Assembly (NCBI GenBank): GCA_026394715.1
Contig: JAPKXR010000210.1
Location: forward strand, 1-49,442
Length of the DNA: 49,442 nucleotides
Direction of reading: 5' to 3'
DNA from: Methanomicrobiales archaeon
GTDB taxonomy: Archaea; Halobacteriota; Methanomicrobia; Methanomicrobiales; Methanospirillaceae
The stretch's first letter is position 1; the number at the start of each line of letters is the position of its first letter. The position numbers were made by a program, and so were the translations under genes. The notes below the pieces were generated by a model. It worked only from the letters and a program-made list of their open reading frames with translations, made no database searches and was not told where the DNA came from. Shown in pieces: positions 7,636-26,310 of this stretch.

Positions 7636-8811
7636 TTACGCTATCAACACCGATAAATCACCTTCAGATGGCATGAATATCCAGTACCCGTTCATCGGGT
7701 ACATTAGTTGCTGGTCGCTCGGTCCCCCGGCCTGTTCATTGAAGATAGTTGATGAGTACTGTTGCATGGTCGTGTTGAAACATAATATGGTTGACCAGGT
7801 AGAACCGATTGAGACAAAACCTTCACGTGCATTCCCAGGCTCTACCGATGGGTATCCGATGAGGTTCCAGCCCGAAGTCATATGCTTCGAGATCACGACT
7901 GGCCGCGTGACCTGGTATTTGAAGGTCAGGGGAGCTTCATTCTTTGAATAGACCCAGATCCCTTCAAGCGGGAGAAGTATCGATTGTGAATCCAGGGGGG
8001 TATAATGTTTCGATCCGGCATCATACGAAAATAATGAGCGGGAGTCCATATCGACGCCCGCAAATATCAGGCCTGCCGCCCGGTACTGGTCTTTTAAGGG
8101 AAGTGGTGTGGACACCAGGTTCCACCCTCTCATGAGGGTAATTGTACCCTGTTCAGTTGCCGGTGGTTTCACACGTATAAAAGAGGTCTTTTCAAGGGAT
8201 GCCGATTGATTGTTTTCAGCCGTAACCGTAAGGCTTACATTGAACTGACCTGCTTCGGTAAAGGTATGAACAATTTTTGAGCCCGTTGTTAATTCAGGTA
8301 CCGGGATGTCATTATCGCCAAATGTCCATGCCCGTGATATGATTATTCCCCCTGATGTGAGGTCAGTGAATTCGACCACCAATGGTACATTCCCCAATGT
8401 AATGTTCGCGGAAAAGTCCACAACCGGTGTAGATGAAGCCGGGTTTACTACCACGTAGTTCGTTTTTGTGATTGAATTTCCACCATACCCGTTACCTGCA
8501 GTCAGCGATACAGAGTACATGCCAGGGGACTGGTACGTGTGGACCGGGTTGTTATTATTTGAAGTCTGACCATCCCCAAAATTCCAAGCCCAGTAGGTCG
8601 GTACATTCGTAGACCTGTCCGTGAATAGAATGGCCAGGGGTGCGTAGCCCTGCACCGGGTTCCCGGAAAAATCTGCAGCAGGGGGATAATAACCATTCGG
8701 GAGGGTCCCAGGACTGTCATCGTACGGGTTCGTATCGACACCACACCCTGCATATGCACCAGATATCAGTGCCACACACAAGATATAGAAAATTAAGGCA
8801 AAATAACGCAA
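7636..8811 (-). CDS. Secreted PKD-domain surface protein (391 aa)
   Basis: A signal peptide (residues 1-22) ends in AYAGC, so Cys23 could be a lipidation site. Two PKD domains follow, at about residues 38-125 (WAWNFGDGQTSNNNNPVHTY) and 130-215 (RAWTFGDN). A 165-residue C-terminal domain built on GWNLVSTPL, LEGIWVYS, GWNLIGYPS and NGYWIFMP repeats comes last. PKD domains mediate extracellular protein or glycan contacts, so a cell-surface role is likely. The start is a TTG at 8811 behind a GGGGGAAG Shine-Dalgarno; a TATA-like TTATTATA lies near 8860. This is the only undamaged member of a family with four relic loci in the window. Confidence 0.85.
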   Translation of the reverse strand: MRYFALIFYILCVALISGAYAGCGVDTNPYDDSPGTLPNGYYPPAADFSGNPVQGYAPLAILFTDRSTNVPTYWAWNFGDGQTSNNNNPVHTYQSPGMYSVSLTAGNGYGGNSITKTNYVVVNPASSTPVVDFSANITLGNVPLVVEFTDLTSGGIIISRAWTFGDNDIPVPELTTGSKIVHTFTEAGQFNVSLTVTAENNQSASLEKTSFIRVKPPATEQGTITLMRGWNLVSTPLPLKDQYRAAGLIFAGVDMDSRSLFSYDAGSKHYTPLDSQSILLPLEGIWVYSKNEAPLTFKYQVTRPVVISKHMTSGWNLIGYPSVEPGNAREGFVSIGSTWSTILCFNTTMQQYSSTIFNEQAGGPSDQQLMYPMNGYWIFMPSEGDLSVLIA

Positions 8812-16882: not shown

Positions 16883-18730
16883 TTATTTTCCGTTGACCCG
16901 GACCAGGCCGTTCCGGACAGATGCATTACCAACAACCGAACCATTGCTTCCATCATATTTCATGATTGTCAGGGTGACATTGTAGACCCCGGGGAACTGG
17001 TAAATATGGGCTGTATTTGGGCCCGTTGCGTTCATGCCGTCACCAAAATCATAATTCAGAAACATTGGAGATCCGGTTGACTGATCGGTGAAGGAAACTT
17101 TCAGGGGAGCTGTTCCGGTTACGGGTGATGCGTTGAATTTCGCTACAAGGGGGACCCCCGGTACCTTGTTCACCGTGATGACGCCCGGTTTTGTTGCGGT
17201 GCTGCCGATAACTGAATTTGTCGTGGTGTCATATTTCATAATTGACTGGCTAATCGTGTAGACGCCGGGGAACCGGTAGGTATGGGTAGGATTTGGCCCG
17301 GTCACATTCGTTCCGTCCCCGAAATTGTAGACCAGCGTGGTTGGGTTTCCGGTGGACTTATCGGTGCATTTAACGGTCAGCGGGGCGGTACCGTTCACTG
17401 GCCCGACCGTGAAATCAGCATGGAGGCCTGCCGGGATTTGCATATGGACTATCCAGAAGTCTGCGAGGCCATGGTTCCCGGTCACATCCCCTCCATTTGC
17501 GTACGAGTATCCTGTCAACGAAAACATGCCTTTCCCTGACAGGTCCGGCTTGATGCACTGGCCCTGATCGAGGCCCGGGCCCCCCAGGGATTTCTGCCAG
17601 AGGGCCGATCCGTCCTTATCAAATTCCATCACCCAGTAATCCCCGTCCCCATGGTTACCCGTGACATCCCCGTCTTTTGAATACGATACCCCGAACGCGA
17701 CATAGTTCCCGTCAGGGGTACGTTCAAGGTCGTATGCGTTATCATAATCTGATCCGCCGAAACATTTCTGGTTGATGATACTCCCGTTCGTGGAGATCTT
17801 TACCCACCAGTAGTCGAACGATCCGTGATTCCCGTGGACATCTCCGTCGTTGGAGTTGGTGAATCCCATTACCGCATACTCTCCTTCCGGGGTGACAACA
17901 ATCTCCCTGCCTTCATCGTAGAGGCTCCCGCCAAGACATTTCTGCCAGAGAAGTGTACCGGCATCATCGAGCCTGAACAACCAGGCATCGTATGAACCAT
18001 GGTTCCCGCTGACATCCCCGTTATTGGAATTCGTATACCCGATGGCGATGTACCCGCCACCCGGGACTGGCAGGATGTTGTCACCAAAATCATCGCCTGT
18101 CCCGCCGAGTAATTTCTCCCATGTAATCGTGCCGTTCATGTCGGATTTTACGACCAGCACATCATAGCCCCCATGGTAATCAGGGATTGCGGGATCAGAG
18201 TATGCCTGGCCAATCATGATCATTCCGCCATCCGGGGTCTCTTTTCCGTCATTGACAAAGCTCGAACTTCTCCCGGGGTAGCACCGTTTCCAGAGTATCT
18301 TCCCGTAAGTATCGATCTGGATATTAAAGATCGCATAGGGCTTGGTGTTATCGGAAAAATCCCCGTTGTGAGACCAGGTGTATCCCGATAACAGGTACGT
18401 GCCGTCGCTCAGCCGTTCGACGCAGGTTACGGCATCATCCATCGAACCACCGATGGTTTTTTGCCATTCCTTCCCTCCGGCGGCATTAAGTTTTACCACC
18501 CATATATCCATCATGCCGTGTGAATAGGTGATATCCCCGTTACTCGACATGGTGTCACCGACAACGATATACCCCCCGTCATCAGTTGGCTGGATTGAGA
18601 ATGCGTTATCTTCACTGGAGCCTCCGAGTGATTTCTGCCATAGCAAACCGGGGCTGTCTGCCAGCACCGGCGTTACGAAGGCACAGAGCACAAGGAAAAG
18701 GGCAACCATTCCTGCCTGTGTTATTTTCAT
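16883..18730 (-). CDS. Secreted seven-repeat beta-propeller protein with two PKD domains (615 aa)
   Basis: A signal peptide (residues 1-24, ending VLADS) is followed by seven repeats of about 55-60 residues. Each is built around a W-Q-K-(S/C)-L-G-G-(S/T)-x-x-D core, a DGGYI-(V/A)-x-G strand and a (S/N)-N-G-D-(V/I) turn, up to about residue 430; seven copies suggest a seven-bladed propeller. Two PKD domains follow (about 438-520 and 530-605, with FGDG cores). The gene starts inside the stop of the upstream GH81-like gene (ATGA), so the two are coupled. A role in adhesion or carbohydrate binding outside the cell is inferred. Confidence 0.8.
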   Translation of the reverse strand: MKITQAGMVALFLVLCAFVTPVLADSPGLLWQKSLGGSSEDNAFSIQPTDDGGYIVVGDTMSSNGDITYSHGMMDIWVVKLNAAGGKEWQKTIGGSMDDAVTCVERLSDGTYLLSGYTWSHNGDFSDNTKPYAIFNIQIDTYGKILWKRCYPGRSSSFVNDGKETPDGGMIMIGQAYSDPAIPDYHGGYDVLVVKSDMNGTITWEKLLGGTGDDFGDNILPVPGGGYIAIGYTNSNNGDVSGNHGSYDAWLFRLDDAGTLLWQKCLGGSLYDEGREIVVTPEGEYAVMGFTNSNDGDVHGNHGSFDYWWVKISTNGSIINQKCFGGSDYDNAYDLERTPDGNYVAFGVSYSKDGDVTGNHGDGDYWVMEFDKDGSALWQKSLGGPGLDQGQCIKPDLSGKGMFSLTGYSYANGGDVTGNHGLADFWIVHMQIPAGLHADFTVGPVNGTAPLTVKCTDKSTGNPTTLVYNFGDGTNVTGPNPTHTYRFPGVYTISQSIMKYDTTTNSVIGSTATKPGVITVNKVPGVPLVAKFNASPVTGTAPLKVSFTDQSTGSPMFLNYDFGDGMNATGPNTAHIYQFPGVYNVTLTIMKYDGSNGSVVGNASVRNGLVRVNGK

Positions 18731-21700
18731 CCCGTCACCTCCGTGGTCAGGGAACCCTGACCCGTGATACGGTTGTCCGGAACCGCACCGCCGCCACCGG
18801 CAACATCAGTAATCGTCCCTGAAGCACTCGTGCTTATCTTCATGGTGAGGTTAATCGTCATCGTGCTCCCGACTGGAAGTGAGCCCCCGTTTGGTAAGTA
18901 ATTAGGAGTCCAGATTATACGGCTCGGTGCGATGTTCTGCGGAGGATAGTTGGAACTGATGAACGTAGAACCCACTGGAGGTATATCATATGCATCAACT
19001 CCTACAAGGTCCTGCGTCCCGTTATTGTTGATCAGTATGCTGTACGTAAGGAGTCCGCCTGGTGCGACCGATGTCCTGTTGGCAGTAACAGTGAAATTGA
19101 TCGACGGGCCTCCCGCGACCTGGATGGGCACGATACTGGTGCCTTTTACCGATATATTGCCTGTTGCATACCCGGTTGCTTCAGCCACGTCGGTGTAGAT
19201 GCCGTTTGCAGAACTCGGGAATGTTCCGGTCACCAGGTAATTCTGTGTTTCCCCGGGCGATAATGTCCCGGTATTCCAGCTCACGGCATTTCCTGAAACT
19301 ATCCCGGAGGGGTTACTCGAAACGTATGTTACCGTATATGGCAGGTACTCGGAAACGACCACCCCTGAAACCGGACCTGGCCCTGTTGCAGTAACGGTGA
19401 CATTAAACGTTACCGTGCTGCCAGGACCTGTTTTTCCCGGTGCGTTCACATTCACGACGAGTTGCGCATCGGTTGGCGGGGCGTTACCGGCCACCGCATA
19501 CCATCCGGGAGGGACAACGAGGTCCTCTGGAAGGGCCCCACCTGCAGACCCGGCCTGGGAGCCGACCTTCCACCAGTTCACCGTCACCGGTACCTGGTGG
19601 GGGTTCCACGCAACGAAGGTCTCCTGGTTAGCCGGCGAGATAAAAGCCGCACAGAGCGGCTGTGAAAGTCCGTTCGACATTGCATCGGAAGAGTAACCGA
19701 AATAAGAGAAATCAGGTGTGCCGTACGCATCGATCGCCCAGAACCAGTCCAGTACTTCGGACGGGCTCGTGGAATCGTCGACCTGGTTCGTCATACCATT
19801 CCACCACGTCCCGAGATCGTACGGATACTGACCAGGGGCGGTGTTCCGCGAGGACTGGACGGTATTCCAGTACCAGCGGTACGGGGAGACGGGTATATTC
19901 TGTGCTGACGTGTCCCTGATCCCTGCCAGTGCACGCTGCTGGTTCACCACTGCCAGGTAGGAGACCCCGGACGGGTCTGATATATTGCAGAACCCTCCGT
20001 TGGGGGCGTAATCAAGGGCCCGTTCTGAGAGTTCGACATATTTTGGATCTCTTCCGAATGAAAGGGTGTACCCGGCCATAGGGAGCCACATGTTGTACAT
20101 CGAGGAGGTAGGGGAGATCCCGAACTCCGAGGCTGTCTGAACAACCGACTGGGGCATTTTTGGTGCGAATGACGTGGCCTTCGGGTACCCGGGCGGCATC
20201 ACCGGCCAGCTGGACGAGACCTTCGGGTTCCCCCAGTTGTACCAGCGGTTCCACATCGTGTCGCCCATCGAGAAGGCAGTCGGGTCGGCCGGGGTGCTTG
20301 CCGCTGGGATATAGTCCCCGTTCTTTGACCATTGTGCCGCGTTTGGAGCTGAAATTCCGGTTGCGTCAGGAACGTAGGCAAGTTTCTTGTCAGACCAGTA
20401 GGCGTCTGCATTGTAAAGGTTCGTGGTGTAGAGGTAAATCCCGGTATCGGCAATATCCTCCCGGTTTGTTACGGTCCCCCACATGATGATGCCTGCCCAG
20501 GCCTGCATCGTCTCGCCGAGGGAGTTGTCGTCTTTGCCGTTCTGCAGGAGAGACCCGACACCGATCCCTCCGCCCGGGCCTGTCTGCGGAAGCCCCTGTG
20601 TCCATGCCTGCCCGGCCCACTGGTCAAAGAAATTCATCTTCGCATAGTTCAGTCCCGGTACCATGTAGTATGCGGAGTCCCGGTCCGGGTCGTAGGCGAT
20701 CGACATGACCAGCTGGTCAATGAAAGCCCCGTAATTGGTCTCTTCTGCCCACGTGGGGTCGAACCAGGCCACCTGTGCAGCGGCAGTAATCAGGTACCCG
20801 TTCTGGTAGTGCACATCGTTCCATTCGGCCGTGCTCCCGAACCCATCCTCACCCCATGCCCTCGGGTAGGTGACATTCATATCGGCCATCGGCCAGTACC
20901 CGTACGCGGGCGCTGAGTCATCGGTGTCCGGCCCTTGTGAGGGGAACATGTGGAGTGTCCCGAGGGTCGGGTCTGCAAGGAAATAATAGGGGGAGTACTG
21001 GTCCGGCGACCCGGGAGTCGTCTTATTAGTCCGGAACGCCTGCTCCTGGGTATAGAGGGCGAAAAAGTCCTCGATGCCCTCTATGTTCCGGGACTGCGCA
21101 AGCTTCGGGTCGTACGGGTTGTTATAATAGTTATTGTACCACGCGGTGCCGCTCCATCCCGAGCTTGGGTTCCACGGAGTGATATTATAATCGGTAATCC
21201 CGGTGATCTCCGGGTTCGTGGTGGCGATATTCCCTAACTCCTTTGTTATGGCGAGTTTTGCCGACATGTACCTGACCATCTTCGCTAGGTTGTAGGCTGC
21301 GTTCTGGTCTCCACCATCAAGCATGGTAAACAACGGGGGATAGGTCCCGAGGCTCTTCTGGGTATAATCTTGCTCGTCGTTGTTGACAAGGTACCAGAGC
21401 GGCACCCCGTCCATGGTTGCGTTCATGTCCATCGGCGGCATGAAGGGCAGCAGGTTGTTGGTGACGTATGTCGTGGAAAATGAGCCTACACCGACGGGGA
21501 TGAGTTTTCCCTTGGCGATCCAGTACTGGTAATGTCCATTATTTGCAGAAGGCATTGAAGAAGTCCACTGGCCTGGATCTGACGGCCCGACCATGTCCTC
21601 CGCGAGGTTACGGTCATAGACCGGCTGGTTCCGGCCGTCGTTGAACGTATCGTACTGGTGTCTCTGGAGGAGCATGACCGTCTTCCCGAATGTGCTGTTC

Positions 21701-23016
21701 CCGATGGGGCCACGGTTGATAGTCGTCGCAGTATAGGTCGTGTGGAGAAGCCCGGCAGTCCTGTCTACAAAGTATTGTACCGTAGTGTCCGTGATGAAAT
21801 TGTACGCATAGGGGGCAATGGCATTCGCCCAGTCAAGGGACTCCGTGACAGACTGGTTCAGCGTTGGCGTATTGGGGTCCGGGTTTTGGGGTCCCCGCGG
21901 ATACGCCACCACAGGAAGGCCGGCGATTGCAAAGTGACGGGTACCTCCTGAAGATACAGGGGTGAGGAATATCCCGTGCCCGTCGTAGACGCTTGCGTTA
22001 AACGAGGCAGTATCGTAATAAACCGCAAAGAAATTCCAGTTCGTGGTGGTGCCGTCCACGACACCCCCAAGGAACAGCATGTCCTGGTCCGTCCCGACCA
22101 GGTAACAGCCAAGCCCGGGGACCCCAGTATCTACGGGCACGACGTAGACCTGCCCGCGTTGCACGTTATTGGCATTGAATGGCGGGCCGTTGTAGAACTG
22201 GAAGGCCATCGACTCGTTTTGCGGGACTCCGTACCAGGTGAACCATGCAAACGGGGACCCCTTGGCCATCGTGAGTTTCACCTGTTCGTCCGTACCCGAC
22301 CTGTTGAGGAGGAAATCGATGTCCCAGTCCCCCATCCGGTCGGTAACGAGGTTCTCGGGAAATGCCGATCCCCAACCAGGTTCGGTGTCGGTCAGGTTGG
22401 CTGCCGGGAATACACGAAGTCCTGATTCCCATTGACCCGTCTGGCTTATTTCGGTGGTTTTCCCATCCGGTGAAAAGCTTGTTGCCCCTGGTGTGCAGGA
22501 ATTGGGGCCGTAATTAGATCCATCTGATGCCGCAGGGATCGGCATGGAAAAGACGAGCCCTTTCACACGGCCCTGGCCTTCGACATTGGCATAGGCATTC
22601 CTGAAGGTGAGGCTGAGCGGGTCGGCATAGAGTGTGGACTGTACGAACGGCGTCCAGCTCTTCACGAATGGATCGCTGTCTGACGCTTTGTAGGCCCCCA
22701 CGTACTGGAGGGAGTTGTTTGCCCATATCGTGTAGCCGGCCCACGAGTGCAGCCCTTTGACAAGCTGGCCGTCCTTCATGTTGTCTGTCACCGCGGCCTG
22801 GTCGGCGAAGATAGGTGTCGGATTTAAACACCAGTTGCAGGTGAATGGGGCGCTTCCCCGCCACTGGCAGTTATCAGGCCGCTCGGTTTGGACATACGCT
22901 TTCCCGAGCTGGATGGTCCCAGCGGTGACCACCACGGAAAAAAGCATGTTTACAAAAATTATCATGGCAAGGGCACGAATAATACGTTGTCCAGGCCTTT
23001 TGGGTACCAGGGTCAT
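18727..23016 (-). CDS. GH81-like secreted glycoside hydrolase with DUF11 repeats (1429 aa)
   Basis: A hydrophobic N-terminal signal (residues 13-33) leads into a large domain that fits endo-beta-1,3-glucanases of family GH81 in key places. WNDVHYQNGYLITAAA (about residues 730-745) parallels the ND-HHFHYGY motif carrying the general acid Asp. FDQWAGQAWTQGL (about 795-808) parallels the GHSWASG motif, and DDNSLGETMQAWAG (about 824-838) parallels the NQESTSEAxNAW motif. The second glutamate of the last motif is kept; the first is Asn. Two DUF11-type beta-sandwich repeats (about 1180-1290 and 1305-1415) form the C-terminus. It would act extracellularly on a beta-glucan-like polymer. Family assignment is by motif only. 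Confidence 0.65.
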   Translation of the reverse strand: MTLVPKRPGQRIIRALAMIIFVNMLFSVVVTAGTIQLGKAYVQTERPDNCQWRGSAPFTCNWCLNPTPIFADQAAVTDNMKDGQLVKGLHSWAGYTIWANNSLQYVGAYKASDSDPFVKSWTPFVQSTLYADPLSLTFRNAYANVEGQGRVKGLVFSMPIPAASDGSNYGPNSCTPGATSFSPDGKTTEISQTGQWESGLRVFPAANLTDTEPGWGSAFPENLVTDRMGDWDIDFLLNRSGTDEQVKLTMAKGSPFAWFTWYGVPQNESMAFQFYNGPPFNANNVQRGQVYVVPVDTGVPGLGCYLVGTDQDMLFLGGVVDGTTTNWNFFAVYYDTASFNASVYDGHGIFLTPVSSGGTRHFAIAGLPVVAYPRGPQNPDPNTPTLNQSVTESLDWANAIAPYAYNFITDTTVQYFVDRTAGLLHTTYTATTINRGPIGNSTFGKTVMLLQRHQYDTFNDGRNQPVYDRNLAEDMVGPSDPGQWTSSMPSANNGHYQYWIAKGKLIPVGVGSFSTTYVTNNLLPFMPPMDMNATMDGVPLWYLVNNDEQDYTQKSLGTYPPLFTMLDGGDQNAAYNLAKMVRYMSAKLAITKELGNIATTNPEITGITDYNITPWNPSSGWSGTAWYNNYYNNPYDPKLAQSRNIEGIEDFFALYTQEQAFRTNKTTPGSPDQYSPYYFLADPTLGTLHMFPSQGPDTDDSAPAYGYWPMADMNVTYPRAWGEDGFGSTAEWNDVHYQNGYLITAAAQVAWFDPTWAEETNYGAFIDQLVMSIAYDPDRDSAYYMVPGLNYAKMNFFDQWAGQAWTQGLPQTGPGGGIGVGSLLQNGKDDNSLGETMQAWAGIIMWGTVTNREDIADTGIYLYTTNLYNADAYWSDKKLAYVPDATGISAPNAAQWSKNGDYIPAASTPADPTAFSMGDTMWNRWYNWGNPKVSSSWPVMPPGYPKATSFAPKMPQSVVQTASEFGISPTSSMYNMWLPMAGYTLSFGRDPKYVELSERALDYAPNGGFCNISDPSGVSYLAVVNQQRALAGIRDTSAQNIPVSPYRWYWNTVQSSRNTAPGQYPYDLGTWWNGMTNQVDDSTSPSEVLDWFWAIDAYGTPDFSYFGYSSDAMSNGLSQPLCAAFISPANQETFVAWNPHQVPVTVNWWKVGSQAGSAGGALPEDLVVPPGWYAVAGNAPPTDAQLVVNVNAPGKTGPGSTVTFNVTVTATGPGPVSGVVVSEYLPYTVTYVSSNPSGIVSGNAVSWNTGTLSPGETQNYLVTGTFPSSANGIYTDVAEATGYATGNISVKGTSIVPIQVAGGPSINFTVTANRTSVAPGGLLTYSILINNNGTQDLVGVDAYDIPPVGSTFISSNYPPQNIAPSRIIWTPNYLPNGGSLPVGSTMTINLTMKISTSASGTITDVAGGGGAVPDNRITGQGSLTTEVTG

Positions 23017-24846: not shown

Positions 24847-26310
24847 TTATTCAGCGGTCTTCTTCCATTTCTGCCAGACCTGTTCCCGGTAGACGGGGCC
24901 GGAGTTATAGGTGCAGAACGGTATGAGCGTTCCGTCAGGGGTCGCATAATGGATACAGCAGCGCTGGACACGGCCGATGTCATAGTTATACCGGTCCATG
25001 AAATGCATGGTACCAATAAAGAGTGCATTCCAGTGAAACTCCCGTAACGCATCAAAATTCTGCAACAACAAGGCTTTTCCGATCAGCTTCCAGAAATCTA
25101 TTGCACTCCCCTGTTCGCTTTTCTTCACGGAATCATGAAGTGCCTTGATGCCTTCAAGCAGGGTCTTGTACTTGTTCAGGGACCCTCCTTTTCTGAGTTT
25201 TCCTGCCATTGCATCGATCGATTCAAAGAAAAGGTCTACATCAAGCATGCGGTTAATGGGGACCAGGCCCTCTTTTGTTACAAATACATACGTTGCCGCC
25301 CCGCAGTGCTGGTGGGCAGTAAACCGTATCTGGGGTTTTCCGGCGTAAGCTTCGAAAAGGTCGGATATTGGTATTACGCAGGGGATCGGGTAAAAGTCTG
25401 ATTTCCTGATCACACCGTCAGTCTGTGCCTCAACAGCTGCAGATATATCCGGCACCGTGACCCTCTCCCGGATGATATCGTCCTGGCTTGCGGCACCGGT
25501 AAATGCGATCGGCTGGAAGTTCACACCGCGGACCACTGAAATATGGTCGGCCGCATACCGGATGATATCCCCTACCTGGTGGTCATTCCGACCCCGGATT
25601 ATTGTGGGGACCAGCACGATGCCAAGGCCGATTTTGATGCAGTTCGCCACTACTTTTTCATCAATTGCAAGGTTCGGGTTCGTATCACTGGTCACCCCGT
25701 CAAAATGAAGATAAATGGTATTGGTACCTGCATCTTTGAGTCCCTGGGCATAGTTGATATCTTTTGCCAGTTTTATCCCATTCGTCGCGACCTGCACCTG
25801 CGGAAATCCGAGTTCTTTCGCCTTCCGGATAATCTCCGGCAGGTCTTCGCGCATGGTCGGCTCGCCACCCGAGAACTGCACCGCGGGGGCCGGGACTGGT
25901 TTTTCAGCCCTCAGAAGTTTGAGCATCTCAACAACCTGGTCAAATGAGGGCTCATAAATATACCCACAGGCGCGGGCATTGGCGAAACAGAAGTCACAGT
26001 TCAGATTGCAACGGTTTGTGAGGTCAATATTCGCGAGAAGAGTCCCGGACTTATGATTGTTGCAAAGTCCGCAATTGGCAGGGCAGGTCTCTTCTGAACC
26101 ATCCCGTTGTGGATTTTCAATACCCGATCCGATATTTTCGTACCCATCGAACCTTCGGTACATGTCCACGTCAGACCAATAGAGATCACGGAATGACCCA
26201 TGCTCATTGCATGAACGGCGTATCCATACTCCGCCATCTTCCTCTACGATATCCGCGTCAATAACCGTATTGCAGACAGGGCACAGGCTCTTTGTCTTTT
26301 TGATCAGCAT
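24847..26310 (-). CDS. tes: Radical SAM protein, tetraether lipid synthase type
   Basis: This 487-residue protein carries the radical SAM motif C101-x3-C105-x2-C108 (CNLNCDFCF), a GGEP motif at 148-151, an N-terminal cysteine pair CPVC (10-13) and a further cluster of cysteines (C76, C80, C83), implying extra metal centres. The C-terminus has paired cysteines (QRCCIHY, PFCTYNSG). This layout matches the MJ0619-type enzymes shown to join two archaeol chains into tetraether lipids (Tes/GDGT-MAS). Its divergent neighbour encodes CDP-archaeol synthase, strengthening a membrane-lipid role. A GGAG Shine-Dalgarno lies about 8 nt before the ATG. Substrate specificity among Tes paralogues cannot be read from the sequence. 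Confidence 0.75.
   Translation of the reverse strand: MLIKKTKSLCPVCNTVIDADIVEEDGGVWIRRSCNEHGSFRDLYWSDVDMYRRFDGYENIGSGIENPQRDGSEETCPANCGLCNNHKSGTLLANIDLTNRCNLNCDFCFANARACGYIYEPSFDQVVEMLKLLRAEKPVPAPAVQFSGGEPTMREDLPEIIRKAKELGFPQVQVATNGIKLAKDINYAQGLKDAGTNTIYLHFDGVTSDTNPNLAIDEKVVANCIKIGLGIVLVPTIIRGRNDHQVGDIIRYAADHISVVRGVNFQPIAFTGAASQDDIIRERVTVPDISAAVEAQTDGVIRKSDFYPIPCVIPISDLFEAYAGKPQIRFTAHQHCGAATYVFVTKEGLVPINRMLDVDLFFESIDAMAGKLRKGGSLNKYKTLLEGIKALHDSVKKSEQGSAIDFWKLIGKALLLQNFDALREFHWNALFIGTMHFMDRYNYDIGRVQRCCIHYATPDGTLIPFCTYNSGPVYREQVWQKWKKTAE

Follow-up and report, generated by a model that had tools for sequence, protein, structure and literature searches.

The window, by which we mean the whole 49,442-nucleotide stretch of contig that was analysed, carries on its reverse strand an intact gene for an exported protein that combines a GH81 core with two DUF11 repeats, followed by an overlapping gene that encodes a second protein with a signal peptide-like start (Table 1). 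Since the first of the two conserved glutamates of GH81 is replaced by asparagine, we treat the product as a GH81 homologue rather than as a proven GH81 glucanase, and refer to the group that it represents as Asn-type GH81. The mcrA gene is present in the same assembly, in agreement with the methanogen host supposed by the sequence-only reading of this DNA. Hydropathy rises above 1.6 only at residues 11-38 of the GH81-like protein, which has no other hydrophobic segment, and Pfam detects DUF11 in two stretches (76.3 bits), so that the predicted signal sequence and the C-terminal repeats, both proposed from the sequence alone, are supported.

Table 1. Features of the Asn-type GH81 locus (positions in the window).
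Feature	Position	Strand	Evidence or remarks
GH81-like secreted protein (Asn-type GH81)	18727..23016	(-)	1429 aa, ATG start, intact ORF
Predicted N-terminal export signal, ~residues 1-34 (RR and hydrophobic stretch)	22914..23016	(-)	by inspection
D734, Asp of NDxH motif	20815..20817	(-)	Asp in 40/40 aligned sequences, Asn-type and ordinary
N831, codon AAC, in place of catalytic Glu	20524..20526	(-)	Asn in 11/11 relatives, Glu in 38/38 ordinary GH81
E835, second conserved Glu, kept	20512..20514	(-)	invariant in all 40 aligned sequences
C-terminal part after GH81 core, DUF11 repeats, residues 1186-1429	18730..19461	(-)	Pfam, NCBIfam TIGR01451
Partner gene, 615 aa, signal peptide-like start, propeller-like (SBBP-like) repeats, two PKD	16883..18730	(-)	Pfam, NCBIfam

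The profile match and the predicted fold, the two points on which the proposed GH81 homology could have failed, both proved to be those of GH81. The C-terminal domain model PF17652, whose cut-off is 25.6 bits, matches the protein with 47.5 bits (E 2.1e-12), and the sole sequence matches in the PDB are solved GH81 enzymes, with 6fop found at 1.7e-19 from the single sequence and at 2.3e-55 from a profile. Comparison of the Asn-type group with ordinary GH81, profile against profile, gave an E-value of 5e-39 and an alignment that is gapless across GKDDNSLGETMQAW / GNNQESSSEAINAY. The N-terminal model PF03639 found no match in the genome that contains the window, which is a weak test since control genomes were silent as well; the N-terminal GH81 region is nevertheless covered by the structure and profile-profile comparisons. 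A first AlphaFold2 model built from 15 sequences was too poor (pLDDT 43), its best six structure matches all being GH81, and the prediction was repeated with 40 aligned sequences, yielding a pTM of 0.80 with pLDDT values of ~90 in the surroundings of the acid-Asp motif and in the helix after N831 and of ~53 in the block containing N831. All 15 Foldseek matches of this second model with E-values up to 0.001 are GH81 structures, the best being 6fop (E 4.3e-32, TM 0.76 by target length), a comparison that partly repeats the sequence homology, since the model's alignment contains ordinary GH81 sequences. The protein is thus predicted to adopt the beta-sandwich plus (alpha/alpha)6 fold of solved GH81 enzymes. 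It shares this fold and the Asp and second-Glu motifs with the GH81 endo-beta-1,3-glucanases (PF17652; CtLam81A 6fop, BhGH81 5t4a, RmLam81A 4k35), is ~20-26% identical to ordinary archaeal GH81, and differs from ordinary GH81 in the Asn that replaces the catalytic Glu, in ~10 further switched sites, in long insertions and in its archaeal surface repeats.

The active-site region departs from that of its homologues at one of the two conserved glutamates. The Asp of the GH81 acid motif NDHHFHYG, which we take to be the proposed general acid of the family, is kept as D734 within a motif that reads ND(V/I/D)(H/Q)Y in the Asn-type group. The position of N831, presumably that of the catalytic-base Glu, lies in a stretch that reads GNNQESSSEA in ordinary GH81 and GKDDNSLGET in the window protein, and the E542/E546-type pair of glutamates, spaced four residues apart, is represented only by its second member, the first being Asn in all 11 relatives that span the motif. 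By contrast, Glu occupies this position in 38 of 38 ordinary GH81 sequences, drawn from 4 other Methanomicrobiales loci, 31 haloarchaeal loci and 3 bacterial plasmid loci; the Glu to Asn exchange noticed in the sequence-only reading is real. Misalignment of the two residues was rejected because N831 faces the Glu, with no gap, in every one of the independent alignments made by four methods (phmmer, hmmsearch, MAFFT and hhalign). The natural protein differs at the position that crystallographers chose to mutate: the 6fop sequence, titled 'Mutant E515A', reads GNNQASSSE with Ala at the equivalent of N831, and the 5upi, 5upm, 5upn and 5upo sequences read GNNQQSSSE with Gln in place of Glu, 5upi and 5upm being titled 'BhGH81 mutant' and having laminari-oligosaccharides bound.

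A search of the whole order identified Asn-type GH81 in 13 of 232 genomes of Methanomicrobiales, the named relatives being Methanolinea and other metagenome-assembled members of the order. The assembly containing the window is split into 402 contigs, which could raise the concern that the gene comes from a contaminant contig or contains a sequence error, but the same gene is found in one-contig and two-contig genomes (G121, G156) as well as in the others of the 13, and the Asn is specified by the synonymous codons AAC and AAT among the relatives, so that we regard this explanation as having a negligible probability. N831 is neither an error nor a product of decay. Within the databases that could be searched the subfamily is confined to Methanomicrobiales; bacterial genomes were covered only by a single scan with strict peptide patterns, which matched Methanomicrobiales alone. 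Spread by viruses was considered and rejected since no relative was found among the viral contigs searched, and the matches on plasmids were all distant (27-34% identity, with 13-16% of the query covered), with Glu retained at the three plasmid loci examined (L072-L074). The Asn-type sequences group together in a single clade (SH-aLRT 100), whose stem has a length of 1.87 changes per site, and they have a single origin; the exact sister group is uncertain because long branches meet at this stem. The GH81 proteins of Haloarchaea (L041-L071) and of four other Methanomicrobiales genomes (L017, L018, L019, L020) belong to the same family, come from the same phylum and in some cases have PKD domains, but they keep Glu in GNNxES(S/I)SE-type motifs and fall outside the clade, and none of these four genomes contains an Asn-type gene.

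Several observations indicate that the altered site has been maintained by selection. Between close pairs of Asn-type genes dN/dS is 0.06-0.13. In a comparison of the lineages that have diverged most (the window protein, L021 and L029, ~50% identical), no 25-residue segment is more conserved than the one that begins at 826-828 and includes N831 and E835, and only one other equals it. Moreover, N831 is accompanied by ~10 positions that switch as a set, each showing little or no variation in ordinary GH81 and being fixed for a different residue in the Asn-type group; they include P452R, L732W, R795N, Y800W, H803Q, A806T, N828K, S834G and I975N. Taken together, the co-switched invariant positions, the low dN/dS and the conserved motif imply that the base was not simply lost, but that the site was rebuilt and then held. 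The suggestion from the sequence alone that activity may be changed receives indirect support from these substitutions in the active-site region, which make a change of activity probable; the protein probably either catalyses an altered reaction or serves only to bind a polysaccharide. The same positions bear on the possibility that the protein is an ordinary GH81 endo-beta-1,3-glucanase of unchanged specificity, in which E835 acts as the actual base and the exchange is tolerated. Both groups keep E835 without exception, and the second Glu was reportedly considered as the base in an early structural proposal for GH81, but the constancy of the first Glu in ordinary sequences and the switching of ~10 more positions that are (nearly) invariant there render this possibility improbable.

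In our best reading, the Asn-type proteins constitute a GH81 subfamily of the cell surface whose active site has been re-tooled, acting either as a hydrolase with a non-canonical base or as a non-catalytic glycan binder. Our first choice, to which we give slightly less than even confidence, is an inverting hydrolase of changed specificity that uses either Asn or E835. In such an enzyme the GH81 barrel would keep the acid Asp D734 and E835, with the base Glu replaced by N831 and the surrounding pocket re-tooled as a set; D734 would protonate the leaving group, and water would be activated either by E835 acting as the base or by the imidic form of N831, a mechanism proposed for GH45, GH95 and GH139. 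The target would be a polymer unlike plain laminarin, located in the cell envelope or close to it, and its cleavage would not serve feeding. In the families that activate Asn (GH45-C, GH95 and GH139) a second acid usually assists the Asn. Asn has been proposed as the base in inverting glycosidases, including GH95 and GH139 (PMC12282258), and in GH45 subfamily C (PMC5829257), and amide bases have been put forward for GH45 subfamily C, GH95, GH139 and GH43_24 (PMC12282258, PMC5829257). The GH95 and GH139 fucosidases, which also have the (alpha/alpha)6 fold, and the GH45-C cellulases belong to other families and act on other substrates, and serve here as a comparison of how such a site might work, with no membership claimed. 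The more specific proposal of an active extracellular enzyme in which the base was swapped from Glu to Asn and the pocket re-tooled, giving a new mechanism and substrate within GH81, seems to us possible but rather unlikely.

Other arguments weigh against a hydrolase. The Ala and Gln crystal mutants, some of which contain laminari-oligosaccharide, suggest that loss of the Glu at the N831 position blocks ordinary GH81 hydrolysis, and a non-catalytic glycan binder with a conserved groove would look identical. Our second choice, a serious contender that we hold to be somewhat less probable, is accordingly a GH81 pseudoenzyme that has lost its base and serves as a secreted or surface adhesin or lectin, binding glycan through the old groove and displayed with the help of DUF11 and PKD partners. 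This would agree with the replacement of the very residue mutated in the PDB entries, with the change of the canonical pocket residues R795, H803 and Y800, and with DUF11, PKD and propeller repeats that are typical of surface display. On the other hand, neither D734 nor E835 ever varies, few parts of the protein are as constrained as the altered motif, and a protein that only binds would have no need of the acid. An inverting phosphorylase or transferase, whose acceptor is phosphate or another molecule instead of water as in related (alpha/alpha)6 phosphorylases, would likewise have lost the base and retained the acid, and an invariant, clade-specific Lys (K828) lies three residues from N831. 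Phosphorolysis would be unusual for an exported protein, and no phosphate-binding motif was identified, so that we consider such an activity very improbable.

The inverting hydrolase that we prefer, like a glycan binder, is probably held at the cell surface by the DUF11 repeats together with the PKD/propeller partner that is co-translated with it. In all eight loci with enough sequence, the GH81 stop codon and the start codon of the partner gene overlap within ATGA, and full-length copies of the partner (at least 61% identity) occur in 9 genomes only, all of which carry Asn-type GH81. The other genes of the window have no counterparts beside the GH81/partner pairs of the relatives, and the neighbours sampled in three relatives differ. 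In the outlying relatives L021 and L029 no partner gene follows directly after GH81, and PKD domains are located on the GH81 chain itself; L029, which lacks the partner gene, has four of them, and together with the two DUF11 repeats these domains point to a surface role. L021 (L021:654-11756, reverse strand, in G121) encodes a GH81 relative of 3701 residues that unites 13 PEGA stretches with carboxypeptidase-regulatory-like and PKD domains in one chain. The C-terminal PKD part of the window's partner protein (residues ~380-615) recurs with 65-76% identity at four other places in its own genome (G000 contigs C85, C115, C164 and C299), which suggests a shared surface or display module, and a 391-residue PKD-repeat protein encoded elsewhere in the window (7636-8811, reverse strand) has PKD domains related to those of the partner.

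As to biological role, the supposition that the organism does not feed on glucans is favoured by a search of its own genome that found no GH1, GH3 or GH94, an argument that weighs little because other families could do the job. None of the neighbouring genes in the window names a substrate, and the two roles raised from the sequence alone, reshaping the sheath of the organism itself or attacking the polymer of a partner, find no support in the evidence gathered and would be guesses. A 2925-residue protein in G121 (L086:3595-12372, reverse strand) is encoded ~3 kb upstream of the Asn-type GH81 gene of that genome and contains two GH94 supersandwich stretches, a GH94 catalytic domain, a Glycoamylase domain and a weak glycosyltransferase match, an architecture that, judged from its domains, resembles cyclic beta-1,2-glucan synthase. 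Glycoamylase-family proteins, many of ~2930 residues, are found in 20 of the 232 genomes of the order; because G121 is the only Asn-type genome among these 20, we rejected a beta-glucan synthase as the general partner.

A literature search of titles and abstracts found no paper linking GH81 and methanogens that concerns a methanogen GH81, and the Asn-type proteins are a real and coherent GH81 variant in methanogens without earlier description in the papers found. A change of the catalytic base that has become fixed throughout a clade, with strong selection on both the acid and the pocket, constitutes a rare natural experiment on glycosidase mechanism, and here allows the idea of an amide as base to be tested in a family for which several structures have been solved. 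A surface polysaccharide of methanogens that has gone unrecognised, or a means by which they hold on to a polymer, would be revealed as well. Near the GH81-like gene and unrelated to it, the window (24847-26310, reverse strand) also encodes a radical SAM protein with an HMPTM N-terminal zinc ribbon.
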